DNA of 64,000 nt. Source: Lysobacter enzymogenes. Its GTDB lineage: Bacteria; Pseudomonadota; Gammaproteobacteria; Xanthomonadales; Xanthomonadaceae. Location: NCBI RefSeq assembly GCF_017355525.1, contig NZ_CP067395.1, forward strand, positions 3,751,001 through 3,815,000, read 5' to 3'. Below are positions 55,401 to 60,584 of this stretch, in pieces (position 1 is the first letter of the stretch; each line of letters begins with the position of its first letter). A program made the position numbers and the translations under genes. The notes under the pieces are model-generated. The model worked only from the letters and a program-made list of their open reading frames with translations. It ran no database searches and was not told where the DNA came from.

Positions 55401-56104
55401 ATGGCGACAACGTCGCGTTCCTGCCGCTCGACGACCTGCGCCTGTCGCGCTCGCTCGACGAACTGATCGCGCGCCGCGTCGCCTTCCTGACCGACTACCA
55501 GGACGCCGCCTACGCCAAGCGCTATTCCGACTTCGTCGCCAAGGTGCGCGAGGCCGAGCAAAAGAAGGCGCCGGGCTCGACCGATCTGGCCGAGGCGGTC
55601 GCGCGCTACTTCTTCAAGCTGATGGCCTACAAGGACGAGTACGAAGTCGCGCGCCTGTACACCAGCGGCGAATTCCAGCGCCGCCTGCAGCAGCAGTTCG
55701 ACGGCGACTACAAGCTCAAGTTCCACCTCGCCCCGCCGCTGCTGGCCAAGAAGGACGCGCAAGGCCGTTTGATCAAGCAGGAATTCGGCCCCTGGGTGTT
55801 CACCGCGTTCAAGTGGATGGCCAAGCTGCGCAAGCTGCGCGGCGGCACCTTCGACATCTTCGGCTACACCGAGGAACGCAAGATGGAGCGGCGCCTGATC
55901 GGCGAGTACGAACAGACCGTCGGCGGCCTGCTCGACAAACTCGACGGCGGCAACGTCGACCTCGCCGCGGAAATCGCCGGCATTCCCGAGCACATCCGCG
56001 GCTACGGCCACGTCAAGGAAGAACACCTGCACAAGGCCAAGGCGCGCGAGGCGGAGTTGCTGAAGGAATTCGCTAATCCGTTGCGGATCGTGCAGGCGGC
56101 TTGA
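52412..56104 (+). CDS. Indolepyruvate ferredoxin oxidoreductase (fused, large form)
   Basis: Large enzyme of 1230 residues that oxidatively decarboxylates aryl- or branched 2-oxo acids (from amino acid degradation) to acyl-CoA with reduction of an electron carrier. Order: pyruvate-ferredoxin-type alpha region (about 40-400, GFISGYRGSPLGGFDLEL), a thiamine-diphosphate domain (CSGCPHNTSTVVPEGSRALGGIGCHYM and NLGDGTYFHSG), a cluster region with CEGCGDCG (Cys654, 657, 660) plus C666, a gamma-type Rossmann domain with GVGGTGVVTIG (from 742), and a C-terminal domain of the DUF6537 kind. It follows a -10-like box and ends in a strong terminator. Confidence 0.93.
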   Translation: MTSTAELSSPSSANTDLTNSVLDPDYTLEHKYTRQEGRIYLSGVQALVRLPLMQRLRDQAAGLNTAGFISGYRGSPLGGFDLELWRARKHLEAAGVKFTPGLNEDLGATMVWGTQQTNLFPGAKVEGVYGMWYGKGPGVDRTGDVFKHANAAGTSKHGGVLALAADDHACRSSTLPHGSEGEFTSAMMPILNPAGVQDILDMGLIGWAMSRYTGRWVGFKTIAETVESSASVDVNPLALQIVTPDDFVIPAGGLNIRWPDPPMDQEMRLHQYAVKAAQAFARANRIDRIVIDSANARLGIITTGKSYLDVLQALEYLGLDARACADLGIRVYKVGMTWPLEPVGLRAFARGLDDILVVEEKHAFIESQMKESMYNWDGGKRPSIVGKYDENGEWILPSTGELTPARIAGVIARRIQRFHDSEQMRDVLRWMEEKESELALPRVAFPRVPHYCSGCPHNTSTVVPEGSRALGGIGCHYMVTWMDRDTNTFTQMGGEGVTWCGQAGFTETEHVFQNLGDGTYFHSGSLAIRQSVAAGVNITYKILYNDAVAMTGGQPVDGTLSVPQIAHQVRSEGVHTIVLLSDDIAKWNRRELFPSDVEFHDRKELDAIQKRLRQVKGVSVLIYDQTCATEKRRRRKRGKMVDPQKRVMVNSLVCEGCGDCGKKSFCVSVLPKETEFGRKREIDQSNCNKDYSCVNGFCPSFVTVEGGGLKKKKGSSAKDRLNDLPLPQLPALDQPWNILITGVGGTGVVTIGALLGMAGHLEGKGASVLDQTGLAQKGGAVTTHIRIAKTPEDIHAVRIAAGEADLVLGCDMVVVNDYWALSKIRAGRSQVVLNSYEAMPGTFTTRPDMQFPATDIVAAIKLALGDQAPHLVDATQLATALLGDAIAANLFILGYAWQRALVPISFDALMRAIELNGAAIEMNKTAFAWGRLAAIDPRAVAEAAGVTRKVPTAAEATPRDLPHLKPGEWEGNEWGATSAPRATRNEDELRHVPAKADGDNVAFLPLDDLRLSRSLDELIARRVAFLTDYQDAAYAKRYSDFVAKVREAEQKKAPGSTDLAEAVARYFFKLMAYKDEYEVARLYTSGEFQRRLQQQFDGDYKLKFHLAPPLLAKKDAQGRLIKQEFGPWVFTAFKWMAKLRKLRGGTFDIFGYTEERKMERRLIGEYEQTVGGLLDKLDGGNVDLAAEIAGIPEHIRGYGHVKEEHLHKAKAREAELLKEFANPLRIVQAA

Positions 56105-56147
56105 GGCCTTCGGGTCCGCGACGCGCACGCGATCGCACCGTTGGAAC

Positions 56148-56180
56148 GAAACGCCCCGCATCCGCGGGGCGTTTCTTTTT
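56148..56180 (+). terminator. Rho-independent terminator after the oxidoreductase
   Basis: GAAACGCCCCGC (56148-56159) pairs perfectly with GCGGGGCGTTTC (56164-56175) across a short loop, followed by TTTTT. It ends the 3.7-kb gene and, being between convergent genes, may work in both directions. Confidence 0.93.
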
Positions 56181-56210
56181 CCCCTTCGCAAGCCGCCGAA
56201 GCTCGCCGGC

Positions 56211-56966
56211 TCAAATCGCCCGCAACGCGTGCCGCACCACATCCGCGCTGGCCGCATCGCCCGCGCTGACCATCGCGTAGTTGTAGCCGCCGCGCGACCA
56301 GTACTGCGCCAGCAGGCCGCCGTCGCGGCGGTCGCCGCGCGGCAGCATGTGGTGGCGCGGGCCGGGCGGGCGGATGTAGAAGCTGATCGCCGCGCCGGCC
56401 GGGTCCTGGTAGACCACCAGCGCCGCGGCGCCCTGGTCGGTGGACAGCGCGCGCGCGCCGACCGGGCGGTAGCCGGCGGCGCTGAGGTCGGGCAGGCGCA
56501 TGGGTTCGCGGAAGTTCGCGTCGAGCCAGGACTGCACATCGCCGGCGACCGCGTCGGTGCGCAGGTCGTGGCGCGCGGCGAACAGCCGGTGCGCGGCGAT
56601 CGCGTCGGCCATCGGCGCGCCGGCCAGCATCGCCGGCGCGGCGGGACGGCTCCATTCGCGCGCCTGCCAGCCGCCGATGCCGCCCACGCCGAGGCTCAGC
56701 AGCACCGCCGCGGCCACGGCGTAGCGCGCGCTGCGGCGGCGCGCGAGGCCCGCACGCAGGCGCGCGGGGTCGAGCGCGGGCTCCAGCGGCGGCAGCGCGC
56801 CGGCGAGCCCGACGCGCAGTTGCTGCGCGTCGCGCTGCCAGGCCTGCAGTTCGGCCAGCCGCTCGGGCTGGCGCGCCAGCCAGGCCTCGACCTCGGCGCG
56901 GCGCGCGGGGTCCAGGCGGCCGTCGATGTAGGCGTGCAGATCGTGTTCGTCGGGGACGTGGGTCAT
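56211..56966 (-). CDS. Anti-sigma factor with one membrane span
   Basis: Protein of 251 residues that should hold the adjacent ECF sigma factor inactive. A cytoplasmic N-terminal domain (EHDLHAYIDGRLDPARRAEVEAWLARQPERLAELQAWQRDA) has the usual anti-sigma helix pattern but lacks the HxxxCxxC zinc motif. A membrane helix follows (YAVAAAVLLSLGVGGIGGW, about 82-100), then a periplasmic domain of about 150 residues with a sensor-like end (YRPVGARALSTDQGAAALVVYQDPAGAAISFYI). It lies directly downstream of the sigma gene in the same direction and is cotranscribed. Confidence 0.85.
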   Translation of the reverse strand: MTHVPDEHDLHAYIDGRLDPARRAEVEAWLARQPERLAELQAWQRDAQQLRVGLAGALPPLEPALDPARLRAGLARRRSARYAVAAAVLLSLGVGGIGGWQAREWSRPAAPAMLAGAPMADAIAAHRLFAARHDLRTDAVAGDVQSWLDANFREPMRLPDLSAAGYRPVGARALSTDQGAAALVVYQDPAGAAISFYIRPPGPRHHMLPRGDRRDGGLLAQYWSRGGYNYAMVSAGDAASADVVRHALRAI

Positions 56967-57009
56967 ACGGAACTCGCAAGCGGAAGCGAACAGCGGCGGG
57001 ACGAACGCA

Positions 57010-57525
57010 TCATTTCAGCAATCTCAGCGGCGGCGCGGCGGTCTCGCCGTCGCTGAGCCGGCGCAGCGCCTGGCGCGCGCGCGACAGCCGCGACATCACC
57101 GTGCCGATGGGGACTTCGAGAATATCGGCGACTTCCTGATAGCTCAGGCCTTCGACCGACACCCACAACAGCAGGCTGCGCTGCTCCACCGGCAACTGCT
57201 GCAAGGCCTCCAGCGCCGAGCGCGCGATCGCCTCGCGCTCGGCCGAGGGCTGGCTGTCCGGCGCGCCCAGGCCGGTCCGCGCGAGCACGCCGGCATAGCG
57301 CTGGGCGCGGCGCTGGCCGTCGAGGAACTGGCGGTAGAGGATCGAGAACAGCCACGGCCGCAGCGCCGCCTCGTCGCGGCGCTGGTCCCAGCCGGCGATG
57401 GCGCGCTCGAGCGCGCTCTGGACCAGATCGTCGGCCGCGTGCGGGTCGCGCGCCAGCCAGCGGGCGAAGCGCCGCAGCGAGGGCAGTTGTTCGCGCAGGG
57501 CCTGATCGAGTTCGTGCGGGGACAT
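57010..57525 (-). CDS. ECF sigma factor
   Basis: Sigma-70 family protein of 171 residues. Region 2 is ALREQLPSLRRFARWLARDPHAADDLVQSALERAIAGWDQRRDEAALRPWLFSILYRQFLD, region 4 is ALQQLPVEQRSLLLWVSVEGLSYQEVADILEVPIGTVMSRLSRARQAL. It has no extra C-terminal domain. It is paired with the anti-sigma gene downstream and divergent from catalase-like and cytochrome b561 genes. The region upstream carries a GGGAATAA-N14-CGTC element (57556-57581) 30 bases before its start, matched by a second facing the peroxidase, suggesting that it drives both transcripts. Confidence 0.92.
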   Translation of the reverse strand: MSPHELDQALREQLPSLRRFARWLARDPHAADDLVQSALERAIAGWDQRRDEAALRPWLFSILYRQFLDGQRRAQRYAGVLARTGLGAPDSQPSAEREAIARSALEALQQLPVEQRSLLLWVSVEGLSYQEVADILEVPIGTVMSRLSRARQALRRLSDGETAAPPLRLLK

Positions 57526-57555
57526 GGGCGCGGTTCGCAGGGGTTCGTCCGGTGT

Positions 57556-57581
57556 GACGCCGCCGGACCCAGTTTATTCCC
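57556..57581 (-). promoter_or_regulatory. Predicted ECF promoter of the sigma/anti-sigma operon
   Basis: On the minus strand GGGAATAA (57574-57581) is followed after 14 bases by CGTC (57556-57559), 30 bases before the sigma factor start. The same pattern and spacing occurs in the opposite direction at 57616-57641. Confidence 0.7.
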
Positions 57582-57615
57582 GCGGCCGGTCGCCGCGCCG
57601 TTCAGGACGCGGCGA

Positions 57616-57641
57616 GGGAATAAGCGCCGCGGCCGCGCGTC
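57616..57641 (+). promoter_or_regulatory. Predicted ECF promoter of the peroxidase-cytochrome operon
   Basis: GGGAATAA (57616-57623) is followed after 14 bases by CGTC (57638-57641), 42 bases before the peroxidase start. It is identical in core and spacing to the element facing the sigma gene. Confidence 0.72.
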
Positions 57642-57683
57642 GTACCGGTGACGCAGCCACTCCCGCAGCCACGATCGCCCGCC

Positions 57684-58760
57684 ATGAACGAACCCTTCGC
57701 ACCGCCCCGACCGCCCGTCCCGCTCGCCCGCTGGGCCCTGATCGCGCTCGCGGTCGGCGGCCTCGCCGGCGCCTTCGCCTATGTCGCCGGCTACCTCGAC
57801 CCGCAGCGGCTGACGCCGAAGCGCCTGGTCGATCAGTTGCAGACCAACGGCGGCCTGCACCCCGGCTACCGCCGCAACCACGCCAAGGGCGTGTGCGTGA
57901 TCGGCCGCTTCGACAGCAACGGCGCGGCCGCGCCGTACTCGCGCGCGGCCCTGTTCGCTGCGGGTGCGAGCACGCCCCTGGTCGGCCGCTTCGCCCTGCC
58001 CGGCGGCAACCCCTACGCGCCCGACGGCGGCGTGCCGATCCGCAGCCTGGCGCTGCGCCTGACCCAGGCCGACGGCCAGCAATGGCGCACCGGCATGAAC
58101 AACATGCCGGTGTTTCCGGTCGCCACGCCGCAGGCGTTCTTCGAGCAACTGCGCGCGACCGCGCCCGACCCGGCCACCGGCAAGCCCGACCCGGCCAAGC
58201 AAAAGGCGTTCTTCGAGGCGCACCCGGAAACGTCCGCGTTCCGCGCCTGGATCAAGGACCAGAAGCCGTCGGCCAGCTACGCCACCGACAGTTACTACGG
58301 CCTCAACGCGTTCTACTTCGTCGGCGCCGACGGCGCGCGCCATGCGGTGCGCTGGCGGGTCGAGGCCGACAACGGCGCCGCCGCCGCACCGCTCGGCGCG
58401 CAGGACGTGAACACCCTCGCCGCCGAACTCGAACAACGCCTCGCCCGGGGCCCGCTGCGCTGGCGGCTGTGGGCGACGCTGGCCGCGGCCGGCGATCCGG
58501 TCGACGACGCGACCCAAGTCTGGCCGGCGCAGCGCCCGCAGATCGACGCCGGCACGCTGATCCTGGAACGCGCCCAGGACCAGGACAGCGGCGAATGCCG
58601 CGACATCAACTACGACCCGATGGTGCTGCCCGACGGCATCGTCGCCTCGGCCGACCCGCTGCTGCCGGCGCGCTCGGCCGCTTACGCCGAGTCCTACCGC
58701 CGCCGCACCGCCGAGGAAGCGCGTGCCGGCGGCCGTCCGCCGCAGGAGGCCGCGCGATGA
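57684..58760 (+). CDS. Membrane-anchored catalase-like peroxidase (SrpA type)
   Basis: Heme protein of the catalase-related family, 358 residues, smaller than true catalases. An N-terminal segment (WALIALAVGGLAGAFAYVAGYL, about 17-38) anchors it, leaving the enzyme in the periplasm. The distal His66 is in RRNHAKGVCVIGRF, FALPGGNPYAPDGG follows, and the proximal heme ligand is Tyr334 in the R330-xxx-Y334 motif (RSAAY). In this family peroxidase activity with organic donors is more usual than strong catalase activity. Its TGA overlaps the ATG of the cytochrome b561 gene (ATGA), so the two are coupled, and an ECF-type promoter precedes it. Confidence 0.9.
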   Translation: MNEPFAPPRPPVPLARWALIALAVGGLAGAFAYVAGYLDPQRLTPKRLVDQLQTNGGLHPGYRRNHAKGVCVIGRFDSNGAAAPYSRAALFAAGASTPLVGRFALPGGNPYAPDGGVPIRSLALRLTQADGQQWRTGMNNMPVFPVATPQAFFEQLRATAPDPATGKPDPAKQKAFFEAHPETSAFRAWIKDQKPSASYATDSYYGLNAFYFVGADGARHAVRWRVEADNGAAAAPLGAQDVNTLAAELEQRLARGPLRWRLWATLAAAGDPVDDATQVWPAQRPQIDAGTLILERAQDQDSGECRDINYDPMVLPDGIVASADPLLPARSAAYAESYRRRTAEEARAGGRPPQEAAR

Positions 58761-59347
58761 ACGCCGAGACGAATGCCGAACCGACCCGCCGCGACGAAAC
58801 GATGTTCTGGTGGCCGGCGCGCGTGCTGCACTGGCTGATGGCGCTGATGATCCTGACCATGCTGTTCGTCGGCGCGGGCCTGGTCGCGAGCGTGTCGGAA
58901 CGCCACGCCTGGCTGCTGGCGCTGCACAAGCCGCTCGGCGCGGCGATCCTGGTGTTGGCGGTGTTGCGGCTGGCGCTGCGGCTGTGGCGCCGCCCGCCGC
59001 CGCTGCCGCGCGAGCTGAGCGCGGCGCAGCGTTTCGCCGCGCACGCCTCGCACTGGCTGTTGTACGCGCTGATGCTGGCGATGCCGCTGATCGGCTGGGC
59101 GATGCTGTCGGCCGGCGGCTATCCGGTCGACCTCGGCGCCGGGCTGCGCCTGCCGCCGATCGCGCCGTTCGACCCGAGCTGGTTCGCGGCGCTGCGCTGG
59201 CTGCACCGGACCTTGGCGTACGCCTTGTTCGCGCTGGTGCTGCTGCATCTGGCGGCGGCGCTGTATCACGGCCTGATCCGCCGCGACGGGGTGTTGCGCA
59301 GCATGCTGTGGCGGCGGCGCGAGATTGTGGAGCAGGACCTCGGCTGA
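58757..59347 (+). CDS. Cytochrome b561-family membrane protein
   Basis: Integral membrane di-heme cytochrome of 196 residues with four hydrophobic segments. Possible heme His residues lie in RVLHWLMALMILTMLF, LLALHKPLGAAILVL, AHASHWLLYALMLAMPLIGW and ALRWLHRTLAYALFALVLLHLAAALYH. It may pass electrons from the quinone pool to the periplasmic peroxidase encoded just before it, with which it is translationally coupled. Together with sigma and anti-sigma genes this four-gene arrangement is a known recurring one in proteobacteria. Confidence 0.9.
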   Translation: MNAETNAEPTRRDETMFWWPARVLHWLMALMILTMLFVGAGLVASVSERHAWLLALHKPLGAAILVLAVLRLALRLWRRPPPLPRELSAAQRFAAHASHWLLYALMLAMPLIGWAMLSAGGYPVDLGAGLRLPPIAPFDPSWFAALRWLHRTLAYALFALVLLHLAAALYHGLIRRDGVLRSMLWRRREIVEQDLG

Positions 59348-59414
59348 GTGGCGATTGCGGCACCGTGCTTTCGGCGCGAACGGCCACAATTCTGCGCGCA
59401 AGCGCCGATTCCGA

Positions 59415-59502
59415 CTGTAGGAGCTGCGCAAGCTGCGACCGCGACATCGCGCTTACGACGCAAACGGCTACCCCGCGGTCGCGGCTCGCGCCGCTCCTAC
59501 AG
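59415..59502. repeat. Inverted repeat element, family A, copy 3
   Basis: Left arm (59415-59444, CTGTAGGAGCTGCGCAAGCT...) and right arm (59474-59502, ending GCCGCTCCTACAG) form an imperfect inverted repeat; both have the TGTAGGAGC edge of copies 1 and 2. It follows the cytochrome b561 gene and precedes a convergent gene. Confidence 0.85.
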
Positions 59503-59515
59503 GAAGCGATCCGGT

Positions 59516-59818
59516 TTACCCGGCCGGCGGCAGGCCGTGCCCGCCGACCGGCTCGGTTTCGAAATGCGAATCGAACCCCGCGATCATCGGCCGCGCCTTG
59601 GCGATCGTCGCCTGCACCTGCGGCAACGACAACGAGGCGCGATGGCTGTCGGCGTCGTCCCAGACCTCGGTGATCCAGATCGCGTCGCCGTCGCCCGGAT
59701 CGCGCGCGACGATGTAGCTGCGGCAGCCGGGCATCGCGCCCACGTCCTGCAACAGCAGCGCGATCAGCGCGTCGCGCTGGCCCGGCGCGGCTTTCATGCG
59801 GCCGATCAATCCGTACAT
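59516..59818 (-). CDS. Antibiotic biosynthesis monooxygenase-fold protein
   Basis: Dimeric alpha/beta-barrel protein of 100 residues. The ABM-fold pattern is MYGLIGRMKAAPGQRDALIALLLQDVGAMPGCRSYIVARDPGDGDAIWITEVWDDADSHRASLSLPQVQATIAKARPMIAGF, with the conserved E-W-D element (ITEVWDD) and the following helix. Such proteins are mono-oxygenases or isomerases of quinone-like compounds, or have no known activity. ATG at 59818 follows GCGAGGACACCGCC. No adjacent biosynthetic genes are seen. Confidence 0.88.
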   Translation of the reverse strand: MYGLIGRMKAAPGQRDALIALLLQDVGAMPGCRSYIVARDPGDGDAIWITEVWDDADSHRASLSLPQVQATIAKARPMIAGFDSHFETEPVGGHGLPPAG

Positions 59819-59984
59819 GGCGGTGTCCTCGCATGCGGGCGCGGGCCCGCCGGGAGCCGACTCTAGCGCCGTATTGCGGACAGATCGCGGACAGCAAGCT
59901 CGCGAACGGCTGGCTCGCGGAAAGCCAGCGGGGATAGCGGGCCCATAGACAGCCGGCTCGTGGGCACCGGGCCCGCGAACAGGC

Positions 59985-60584
59985 TCAGCGCGCCTCGCGC
60001 GGCAACTCCGCCCGACCCAGCGCGTACGGCAGCAGCCGCGCGATGTTGCGCGCATCGTCGATGCCGCGGTGGTGGGTGCCGGCGAACTCCAGCCGCGCGC
60101 GGCGCACGCCGCCGCCGAGGCCGAACTTGCGGCCCGAGCCTTCGCGCTGCGCGAACAGCCGCTTGATGTTGCGGTGCGGCGCGCCGACCGGATCGGCGAC
60201 GCGGTGGAAGCCGCAGTCCTGCTGCAGCTGATTGCGGTCGTAATCGCCCCACGAACCCCAGATCAGGTCCGGATACGCGCCGCGCCAAGCCTTCAGCGCG
60301 GCGGCCACGTCGGCGAAACCGGGCGCGGCGTCGACCTGCGCCTGGGTGATCGTGGTCAGTTGCGTGCAGAAATCGCTCAGCCGCGGATGCCGCACCGGCC
60401 GCACGAAACTCTGGAATTCGTCGACCACGCGCAACGTCGCGGTTTCGACCATCACCGCGCCGATCTCGATGATCTCCATCTGCTGGCGCGGCACCGACCC
60501 GTCGTTGGCGCAGGTCGCTTCGAAGTCGATCAGCAGGTAATGCGCGGGTTCTCGTTCTGGTTCTTTTTCGATGTTTTCGTTCAT
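59985..60584 (-). CDS. DEDDh 3'-5' exonuclease (ERI1/Snipper-like)
   Basis: Exonuclease of 199 residues. Exo I is LLIDFEATCAND (Asp and Glu for metal binding), Exo II is the aspartate in WGSWGDYDRNQLQQDC, and Exo III is GTHHRGIDDARNIARLL with the His and Asp of the DEDDh type. The layout resembles ERI1-like nucleases that trim RNA 3' ends, with the phrase IEIGAVMV of the family. It has no extra domain. The start at 60584 uses the ATG upstream of ENIEKEPEREPAHYLLIDF. It is followed by the M61 peptidase, 97 bases upstream on the same strand. Confidence 0.88.
   Translation of the reverse strand: MNENIEKEPEREPAHYLLIDFEATCANDGSVPRQQMEIIEIGAVMVETATLRVVDEFQSFVRPVRHPRLSDFCTQLTTITQAQVDAAPGFADVAAALKAWRGAYPDLIWGSWGDYDRNQLQQDCGFHRVADPVGAPHRNIKRLFAQREGSGRKFGLGGGVRRARLEFAGTHHRGIDDARNIARLLPYALGRAELPREAR

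Follow-up and report, generated by a model that had tools for sequence, protein, structure and literature searches.

At one locus of Lysobacter enzymogenes, an ECF sigma factor gene and a gene for a catalase-fold heme peroxidase are transcribed away from each other across a short gap, which raises the question of whether the sigma factor transcribes both itself and the peroxidase. We addressed this question in a stretch of 64,000 nucleotides around the locus (the window, whose numbering is used below unless another source is named) and in related loci of other genomes. Judging from these comparisons, two elements in the gap are very likely the -35 and -10 boxes of a divergent promoter pair recognised by the adjacent sigma factor (57010–57525, ECF26/PrtI type), which would drive its own operon and the peroxidase–cytochrome b561 operon under anti-sigma control.

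Two divergent elements in the sigma–peroxidase gap

The gap of 158 bp (57526–57683) separates the ATG of the sigma gene (57525, minus strand) from that of the peroxidase gene (57684, plus strand). According to the original prediction, it holds the same GGGAATAA-N14-CGTC element once in each direction, with the same core and spacing, and the pattern search found exactly this arrangement: one copy on the plus strand (57616–57641) and one on the minus strand (57581–57556), with 34 bp separating the two GGGAATAA boxes (Table 1). The consensus described for ECF26 factors is GGAATA at -35 and GT at -10 (PMC6180224), and both elements carry GGAATA at -35 and GT at -10. At the ECF26 promoter of Sinorhizobium meliloti SMc04049, the mapped start lies 10 bases past CGTC (PMC6180224). 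Applied to both elements, this distance predicts transcription starts near 57651 and 57546, giving predicted leaders of about 33 bases on the peroxidase side and about 21 bases on the sigma side. The ATG at 57684 is the likelier start of the peroxidase, since a frame beginning at GTG 57648 would open just upstream of the predicted transcription start. A scan of 56000–60000 found no sigma-70-type promoter; terminator-like sites were found twice, one of them within the gap (57547–57568), and were no commoner than in shuffled sequence.

Table 1. Features of the sigma–peroxidase locus, in window coordinates
Feature	Position	Strand	Basis and remarks
Membrane anti-sigma factor, 251 aa: predicted N-terminal anti-sigma domain, one TM helix, periplasmic domain	56211..56966	-	Profiles, alignment, structure prediction
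ECF sigma factor, 171 aa, ECF26/PrtI type	57010..57525	-	Pfam regions 2 and 4; best genome match of S. meliloti RpoE6
Candidate -10 CGTC, sigma promoter	57556..57559	-	Pattern search and locus comparison; predicted start ~57546
Candidate -35 GGGAATAA, sigma/anti-sigma operon promoter	57574..57581	-	Pattern search; GGAATA core kept in 23/23 sigma-bearing distinct loci
Candidate -35 GGGAATAA, peroxidase/cytochrome promoter	57616..57623	+	Pattern search, genome scan, locus comparison
Candidate -10 CGTC, peroxidase promoter	57638..57641	+	Pattern search and locus comparison; predicted start ~57651
Catalase-fold heme peroxidase, 358 aa, N-terminal membrane anchor	57684..58760	+	PF00199; nearest solved structure 3e4w; hydrophobic segment at residue 18
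Cytochrome b561, 196 aa	58757..59347	+	PF01292; four hydrophobic segments; overlaps peroxidase stop codon (ATGA)

The strict pattern GGGAATAA-N14-CGTC matched twice in the whole genome (5,947,018 bases, one contig), both times in the gap, against an expectation from base composition of 0.22 per genome and 5e-6 in the gap. Neither the reversed pattern, searched in the whole genome, nor 100 dinucleotide shuffles of the window gave a match.

Further targets, for which a genome scan had been proposed, have not emerged so far. No third site for the strict pattern was found in the genome, and by that pattern the putative regulon is local. The shortened pattern GGGAAT-N16-CGTC gave 14 genome sites: the two in the gap, seven of GGGAATGAC type and five others. 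Six of the seven GGGAATGAC-type sites are located in repeats (stretches L186–L188), the remaining one at 1690360 of the genome. When the five other sites are taken together with one spacing variant (L185), five of the six fall within long open frames; the L181 site, whose -35 is poorer, lies outside any frame of at least 150 aa (stop to stop). GGAATA-N14-17-CGTC gave 24 genome sites versus 10 for the reversed control, and four of the 24 were inspected (the two in the gap and two others). With the inspected relaxed matches consisting of long frames, repeats and one weaker site, a wider regulon in this genome has so far gained no support.

That the match is a chance coincidence or the leftover of a repeat has a practically negligible probability: the dispersed GGGAATGAC repeats do match the shortened pattern, but they lack GGGAATAA, shuffling the window never reproduced the element, and the comparison below refutes this explanation, as the pair is kept in every sigma-bearing distinct locus (23/23). 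The repeats themselves are partly tandem, with spacings of 140 and 115 bp, and mimic the shortened promoter pattern through GGGAATGAC...CGTC. They occupy L186 900–1250, L187 900–1300 and L188 1000–1250, near 1.666, 5.102 and 1.512 Mb of the L. enzymogenes genome, respectively.

Co-occurrence of the elements with the sigma gene

Next, we compared the gap across related loci. The set comprised 80 named loci (the best 80 among 421 relatives) together with a further 29 from genomes of the same family (the best 30 matches less the window's own, from a search with matches in 128 of 198 genomes). Merging loci that share a 40-mer upstream of the peroxidase reduced these 109 to 65 distinct loci. A sigma gene was scored as present when tblastn matched it in the locus at E 0.001, and elements by the loose pattern GGAATA-N14-16-CGT, with 300 bp upstream scanned where the sigma gene was absent.

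The divergent sigma gene was present in 23 of the distinct loci, and all 23 carried the element in both directions. Among the 42 loci without it, none carried both elements, 39 carried neither in the 300 bp and three carried one. The loose pattern had a background of 17 matches in 753,848 strand-bases outside the sigma–peroxidase gaps (whole loci where there was no sigma gene), or about 2e-5 per base. Because, in the loci examined, the pair is present whenever the sigma gene adjoins and both elements never otherwise, the sigma factor very probably activates its own gene as well as that of the peroxidase. This comparison (23/23 against 0/42) lends support to the proposal made from the window alone, that an autoregulated ECF sigma factor also drives a peroxidase and a cytochrome b561.

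The geometry of the pairs bears on a different explanation, in which TTATTCCC...GGGAATAA, an inverted pair, serves as the operator of a dimeric repressor or activator and not as two promoters. In the window the two boxes are indeed inverted copies of each other, separated by 34 bp and flanked by divergent genes, as would suit an operator. Across the 23 sigma-bearing loci, however, the two GGAATA cores stand anywhere between 3 and 249 bp apart, in sigma–peroxidase gaps of 117 to 509 bp (approximate lengths, measured between tblastn matches). By contrast, CGT follows each core at a near-fixed distance (N15 in 43 of 46 elements and N16 in three, in a search that allowed 14 to 16). Moreover, single elements precede a Pantoea operon, two Pseudomonas peroxidase genes and the distant sigma genes of the latter. 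We therefore regard an operator as highly unlikely and favour two promoters. One base past CGTC, TAC is favoured, with A in 17 of 23 elements of each direction.

Of the three single-element loci, two are from Pseudomonas (L024 and L082) and have only the peroxidase-facing element; in both genomes a sigma gene (58% identity) lies elsewhere with its anti-sigma gene, behind a GGAATAA-N14-CGTC element. On a Pantoea plasmid, the peroxidase, cytochrome, sigma and anti-sigma genes are co-oriented and preceded by a single exact element. In an 8.5-kb Cupriavidus plasmid stretch, sigma and anti-sigma genes are accompanied by one exact element, and no peroxidase was matched. The third single-element locus, L105, has only the sigma-facing element, and its genome contains no close sigma factor (best match 3.1e-9), so that the element is apparently a relic left after loss of the sigma gene. 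Upstream of the L105 peroxidase, a decayed peroxidase-facing element (GGAATC) was also noticed by eye on the reverse strand.

Distant sigma genes were sought in 20 genomes, including 17 without an adjacent sigma gene or element, chosen from the 39; in these 17 the best sigma match had at most 47% identity. One genome counts against our reading: L104/G164 encodes an ECF26-like sigma factor (47%) with its own GGGAATAA element elsewhere (L148), and its peroxidase gene has no element.

The association was also followed on a tree of 69 peroxidases (the 65 distinct loci, three merged ones restored, and the window), with elements sought in 600 bp upstream. The sigma label changed nine times on this tree, at least four of the changes being forced by well-supported branches. 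The element pair likewise changed nine times and agreed with the sigma label in 69 of 69 rows (both elements in 27/27 with the sigma gene and in 0/42 without). All four independent pairs on well-supported branches pointed in the same direction (sign test, p 0.125, a value that cannot fall lower with only four independent pairs; the loci are related).

The sigma factor and its anti-sigma factor

The sigma factor consists of sigma regions 2 and 4 without an extra C-terminal domain (Pfam/NCBIfam). S. meliloti RpoE6, an ECF26 factor according to PMC6180224, was the sole reference for the group, so that the comparison lies within ECF26 only. Its gene was taken as L113 18903–19508, beside a divergent serine-protease-like frame on pSymA, which matches the published description (PMC6180224). 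Queried against the whole L. enzymogenes genome, RpoE6 matched the sigma factor at 57010–57525 best (97.7 bits, 2.0e-27), the next match reaching 55.1 bits (2.3e-14). The downstream anti-sigma factor of ECF26 systems also has its counterpart here, with a predicted N-terminal anti-sigma domain, one TM helix and a periplasmic domain.

These data also bear on the possibility that the elements are real ECF promoters used mainly by another ECF sigma factor of the genome. Candidates are many, as 39 genome matches to sigma region 4 exceed the Pfam cut-off (not necessarily all of them ECF factors), and cross-activation among ECF26 factors occurs in S. meliloti (PMC6180224). Nevertheless, RpoE6 points clearly to a single gene of the genome, that at 57010–57525, and in both the loci and the tree the element pair tracks the gene corresponding to it. 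We consider another sigma factor improbable, and the adjacent one remains our preferred user of both promoters.

The S. meliloti ECF26 factors RpoE1, RpoE3, RpoE4 and RpoE6 resemble the system of the window in group (by sequence, with RpoE6 alone compared), in the type of -35 and -10 boxes and in a downstream membrane anti-sigma factor, and rpoE6 is likewise divergent from a target gene (PMC6180224). In contrast, their targets are a sulfite oxidase, a serine protease and others (PMC6180224), and RpoE1 and RpoE4 respond to sulfite (PMC3511301). Autoregulation is not uniform in the group: activation of its own operon appears to be lacking for RpoE3, and the mapped rpoE6 promoter looks RpoD/RpoH-like, yet ecfR6 rose on over-expression of RpoE6 (PMC6180224). 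A second likeness is to PrtI/PrtR of Pseudomonas. It is one of name on the anti-sigma side, where an L. enzymogenes homologue (P0005, 89% identity) is called PrtR, and EcfB of Burkholderia cenocepacia has been called closely related to PrtI (PMC2194791). PrtI, however, was described for temperature-dependent regulation of proteases (PMC2194791), whereas the neighbours at the window locus are a peroxidase and a cytochrome.

The anti-sigma factor had been predicted to lack zinc ligands, and its 251 residues indeed include no cysteine. Consequently, the Hx3Cx2C motif of ChrR/RsrA-type zinc-binding anti-sigma factors is absent, which is ordinary, given that about 44% of this class also lack the motif (PMC7406223). 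The single hydrophobic segment lies at residue 82. Two anti-sigma models matched the protein, both under their own cut-offs (Pfam/NCBIfam), and Pfam at E 0.001 gave no match for the window's protein. For a family view, 24 loci were tried, of which 19 had a complete anti-sigma frame, one short one of these being omitted from the alignment. With Pfam at E up to 1, an N-terminal zinc-finger model matched 19 of 19 members (best E 0.00023) and was the only model matched by more than three of them; the window's protein scored 19.6 bits, below the cut-off of 22.2. The match to an EcfR6 profile was weak (probability 29, E 6e-4). Just outside the membrane helix, P118-M119 and D121-A122 are invariant in the 19 members, a possible cleavage or sensing site.

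The predicted periplasmic domain of the anti-sigma factor superposes on the C-terminal domain of RseB/MucB, the periplasmic regulators of RseA/MucA, and resembles that domain in its predicted fold. In E. coli and Pseudomonas aeruginosa a separate protein provides such a domain, whereas here it would lie within the anti-sigma factor itself, and the match is confined to the C-terminal domain of RseB/MucB. The sequence searches for this link failed: MucB_RseB_C (PF17188) was not among the 18 Pfam families found in the 19 members at E up to 1, PF17188 had no match in the genome, and hhalign with E. coli RseB gave E 0.55. On the basis of the structure prediction, we tentatively raise a possibility that we hold to be rather doubtful: that the anti-sigma factor carries an RseB/MucB-like periplasmic domain in cis, so that a single zinc-free and cysteine-free protein senses periplasmic oxidative damage. 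Until displaced by a signal, the domain might protect the anti-sigma factor against site-1 cleavage. The switch might control a quinol-peroxidase defence encoded at one locus. The predicted RseB-like domain is the part of this locus that a specialist would not expect, and, if true, it would offer a compact model for periplasm sensing by zinc-free membrane anti-sigma factors.

An induced orthologue and the peroxidase operon

Published expression data come from B. cenocepacia, in which the putative sigma factor gene BCAL3478 and the divergent putative catalase gene BCAL3477 showed very similar expression after H2O2 (PMC2830190). BCAL3478 is ecfB (3817661–3818182, 522 bp; PMC2194791). The sigma gene of our locus L052 is also 522 bp long. 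Exact matches to the two published ecfB primers, with an identical offset (57 bases) for the forward primer, identify BCAL3478 as the L052 sigma gene. The B. cenocepacia locus (L052/L177) carries both elements. A second peroxidase–cytochrome b561 pair of B. cenocepacia (L179) has no sigma match or element in its stretch.

By qPCR at 15, 30 and 60 min of H2O2, BCAL3478 gave no significant change, 5.5 and 16.6, and BCAL3477 gave 1.7, 6.5 and 23.1; microarray values at 30 min were 3.4 and 2.7, respectively (PMC2830190). NaOCl at 5 min, the one early time used, caused no significant change in either gene (PMC2830190), as was also the case for the sigma gene at 15 min of H2O2. H2O2 was down to a trace after 15 min, and the authors suggested indirect triggering of the catalase (PMC2830190). 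From this locus, Table 3 of that paper gives BCAL3477 and BCAL3478; the cytochrome and anti-sigma genes are absent from the portion covered. EcfB/BCAL3477 thus shares with the window an orthologous divergent pair and both elements, and is co-induced by H2O2; on the other hand, the covered parts of PMC2830190 and PMC2194791 name no promoter element, and the published guess was temperature-dependent regulation (PMC2194791).

These observations allow us to propose how the switch may work. The co-transcribed anti-sigma factor would hold the sigma factor at the membrane until an oxidative signal in the periplasm releases it; this signal would probably be something that follows from H2O2, not H2O2 itself. 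The released sigma factor would transcribe its own operon and the peroxidase–cytochrome b561 operon, and since this positive feedback would also make new anti-sigma factor, we propose that the response is limited. The peroxidase, attached to the periplasmic side of the inner membrane, would reduce peroxides with electrons passing from quinol to cytochrome b561 to the peroxidase.

A literature search for ECF26 together with catalase and cytochrome b561 found nothing, and no description of the promoter pair was found in a search covering few subscription journals; the portions covered of PMC3420878, PMC4373377, PMC6372562, PMC13192273 and PMC3597554 contain nothing on the pair. An autoregulated ECF26/PrtI-type sigma factor with a divergent peroxidase–cytochrome target is well supported by the comparisons above. 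A widespread, little-characterised ECF switch thereby gains a defined putative promoter, a defined output (a membrane-anchored peroxidase and cytochrome b561) and a published H2O2-induced orthologue, so that the Burkholderia co-induction, left unexplained, gets a concrete testable cause.

The best solved relative of the peroxidase is 3e4w (E 4.5e-34 over residues 43–349); we take 3e4w/3e4y to be MAP-2744c. The nearest named relatives, among the best 80 of 421, are from Lysobacter, with 93% to L. enzymogenes. An alignment of 17 loci and the window (L050, with a short peroxidase frame, and others being omitted) showed H66, N139, R330 and Y334 to be invariant in the 18 members and aligned with active-site positions of catalases. 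These residues presumably have the catalase roles of those they align with, as distal His, Asn and proximal Arg-x3-Tyr. The peroxidase thus has the distal His and Asn and the proximal Arg-x3-Tyr of the catalase family, and its activity is predicted. We also considered Tyr310 as the proximal heme ligand and rejected it, as the alignment with solved structures points to Arg330/Tyr334 and 3 of the 18 members have Phe in place of Tyr310. The window's peroxidase differs from that of 3e4w/3e4y, labelled a putative uncharacterized protein, in its membrane anchor and in the overlap of its gene with that of a cytochrome b561.

Three minor observations concern this side of the locus. All 18 aligned peroxidases share Cys71 and Cys305, for which a periplasmic disulfide would be possible. 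Between the cytochrome gene and the next gene, an inverted repeat (TAGGAGCTGCGCAAGCTGCGACCGCGA ... TCGCGGCTCGCGCCGCTCCTACA, 59418–59508) was noted by eye. Last, a small antibiotic-biosynthesis-monooxygenase-like protein (PF03992) is encoded at 59516–59818, adjoining the cytochrome gene on the opposite strand.
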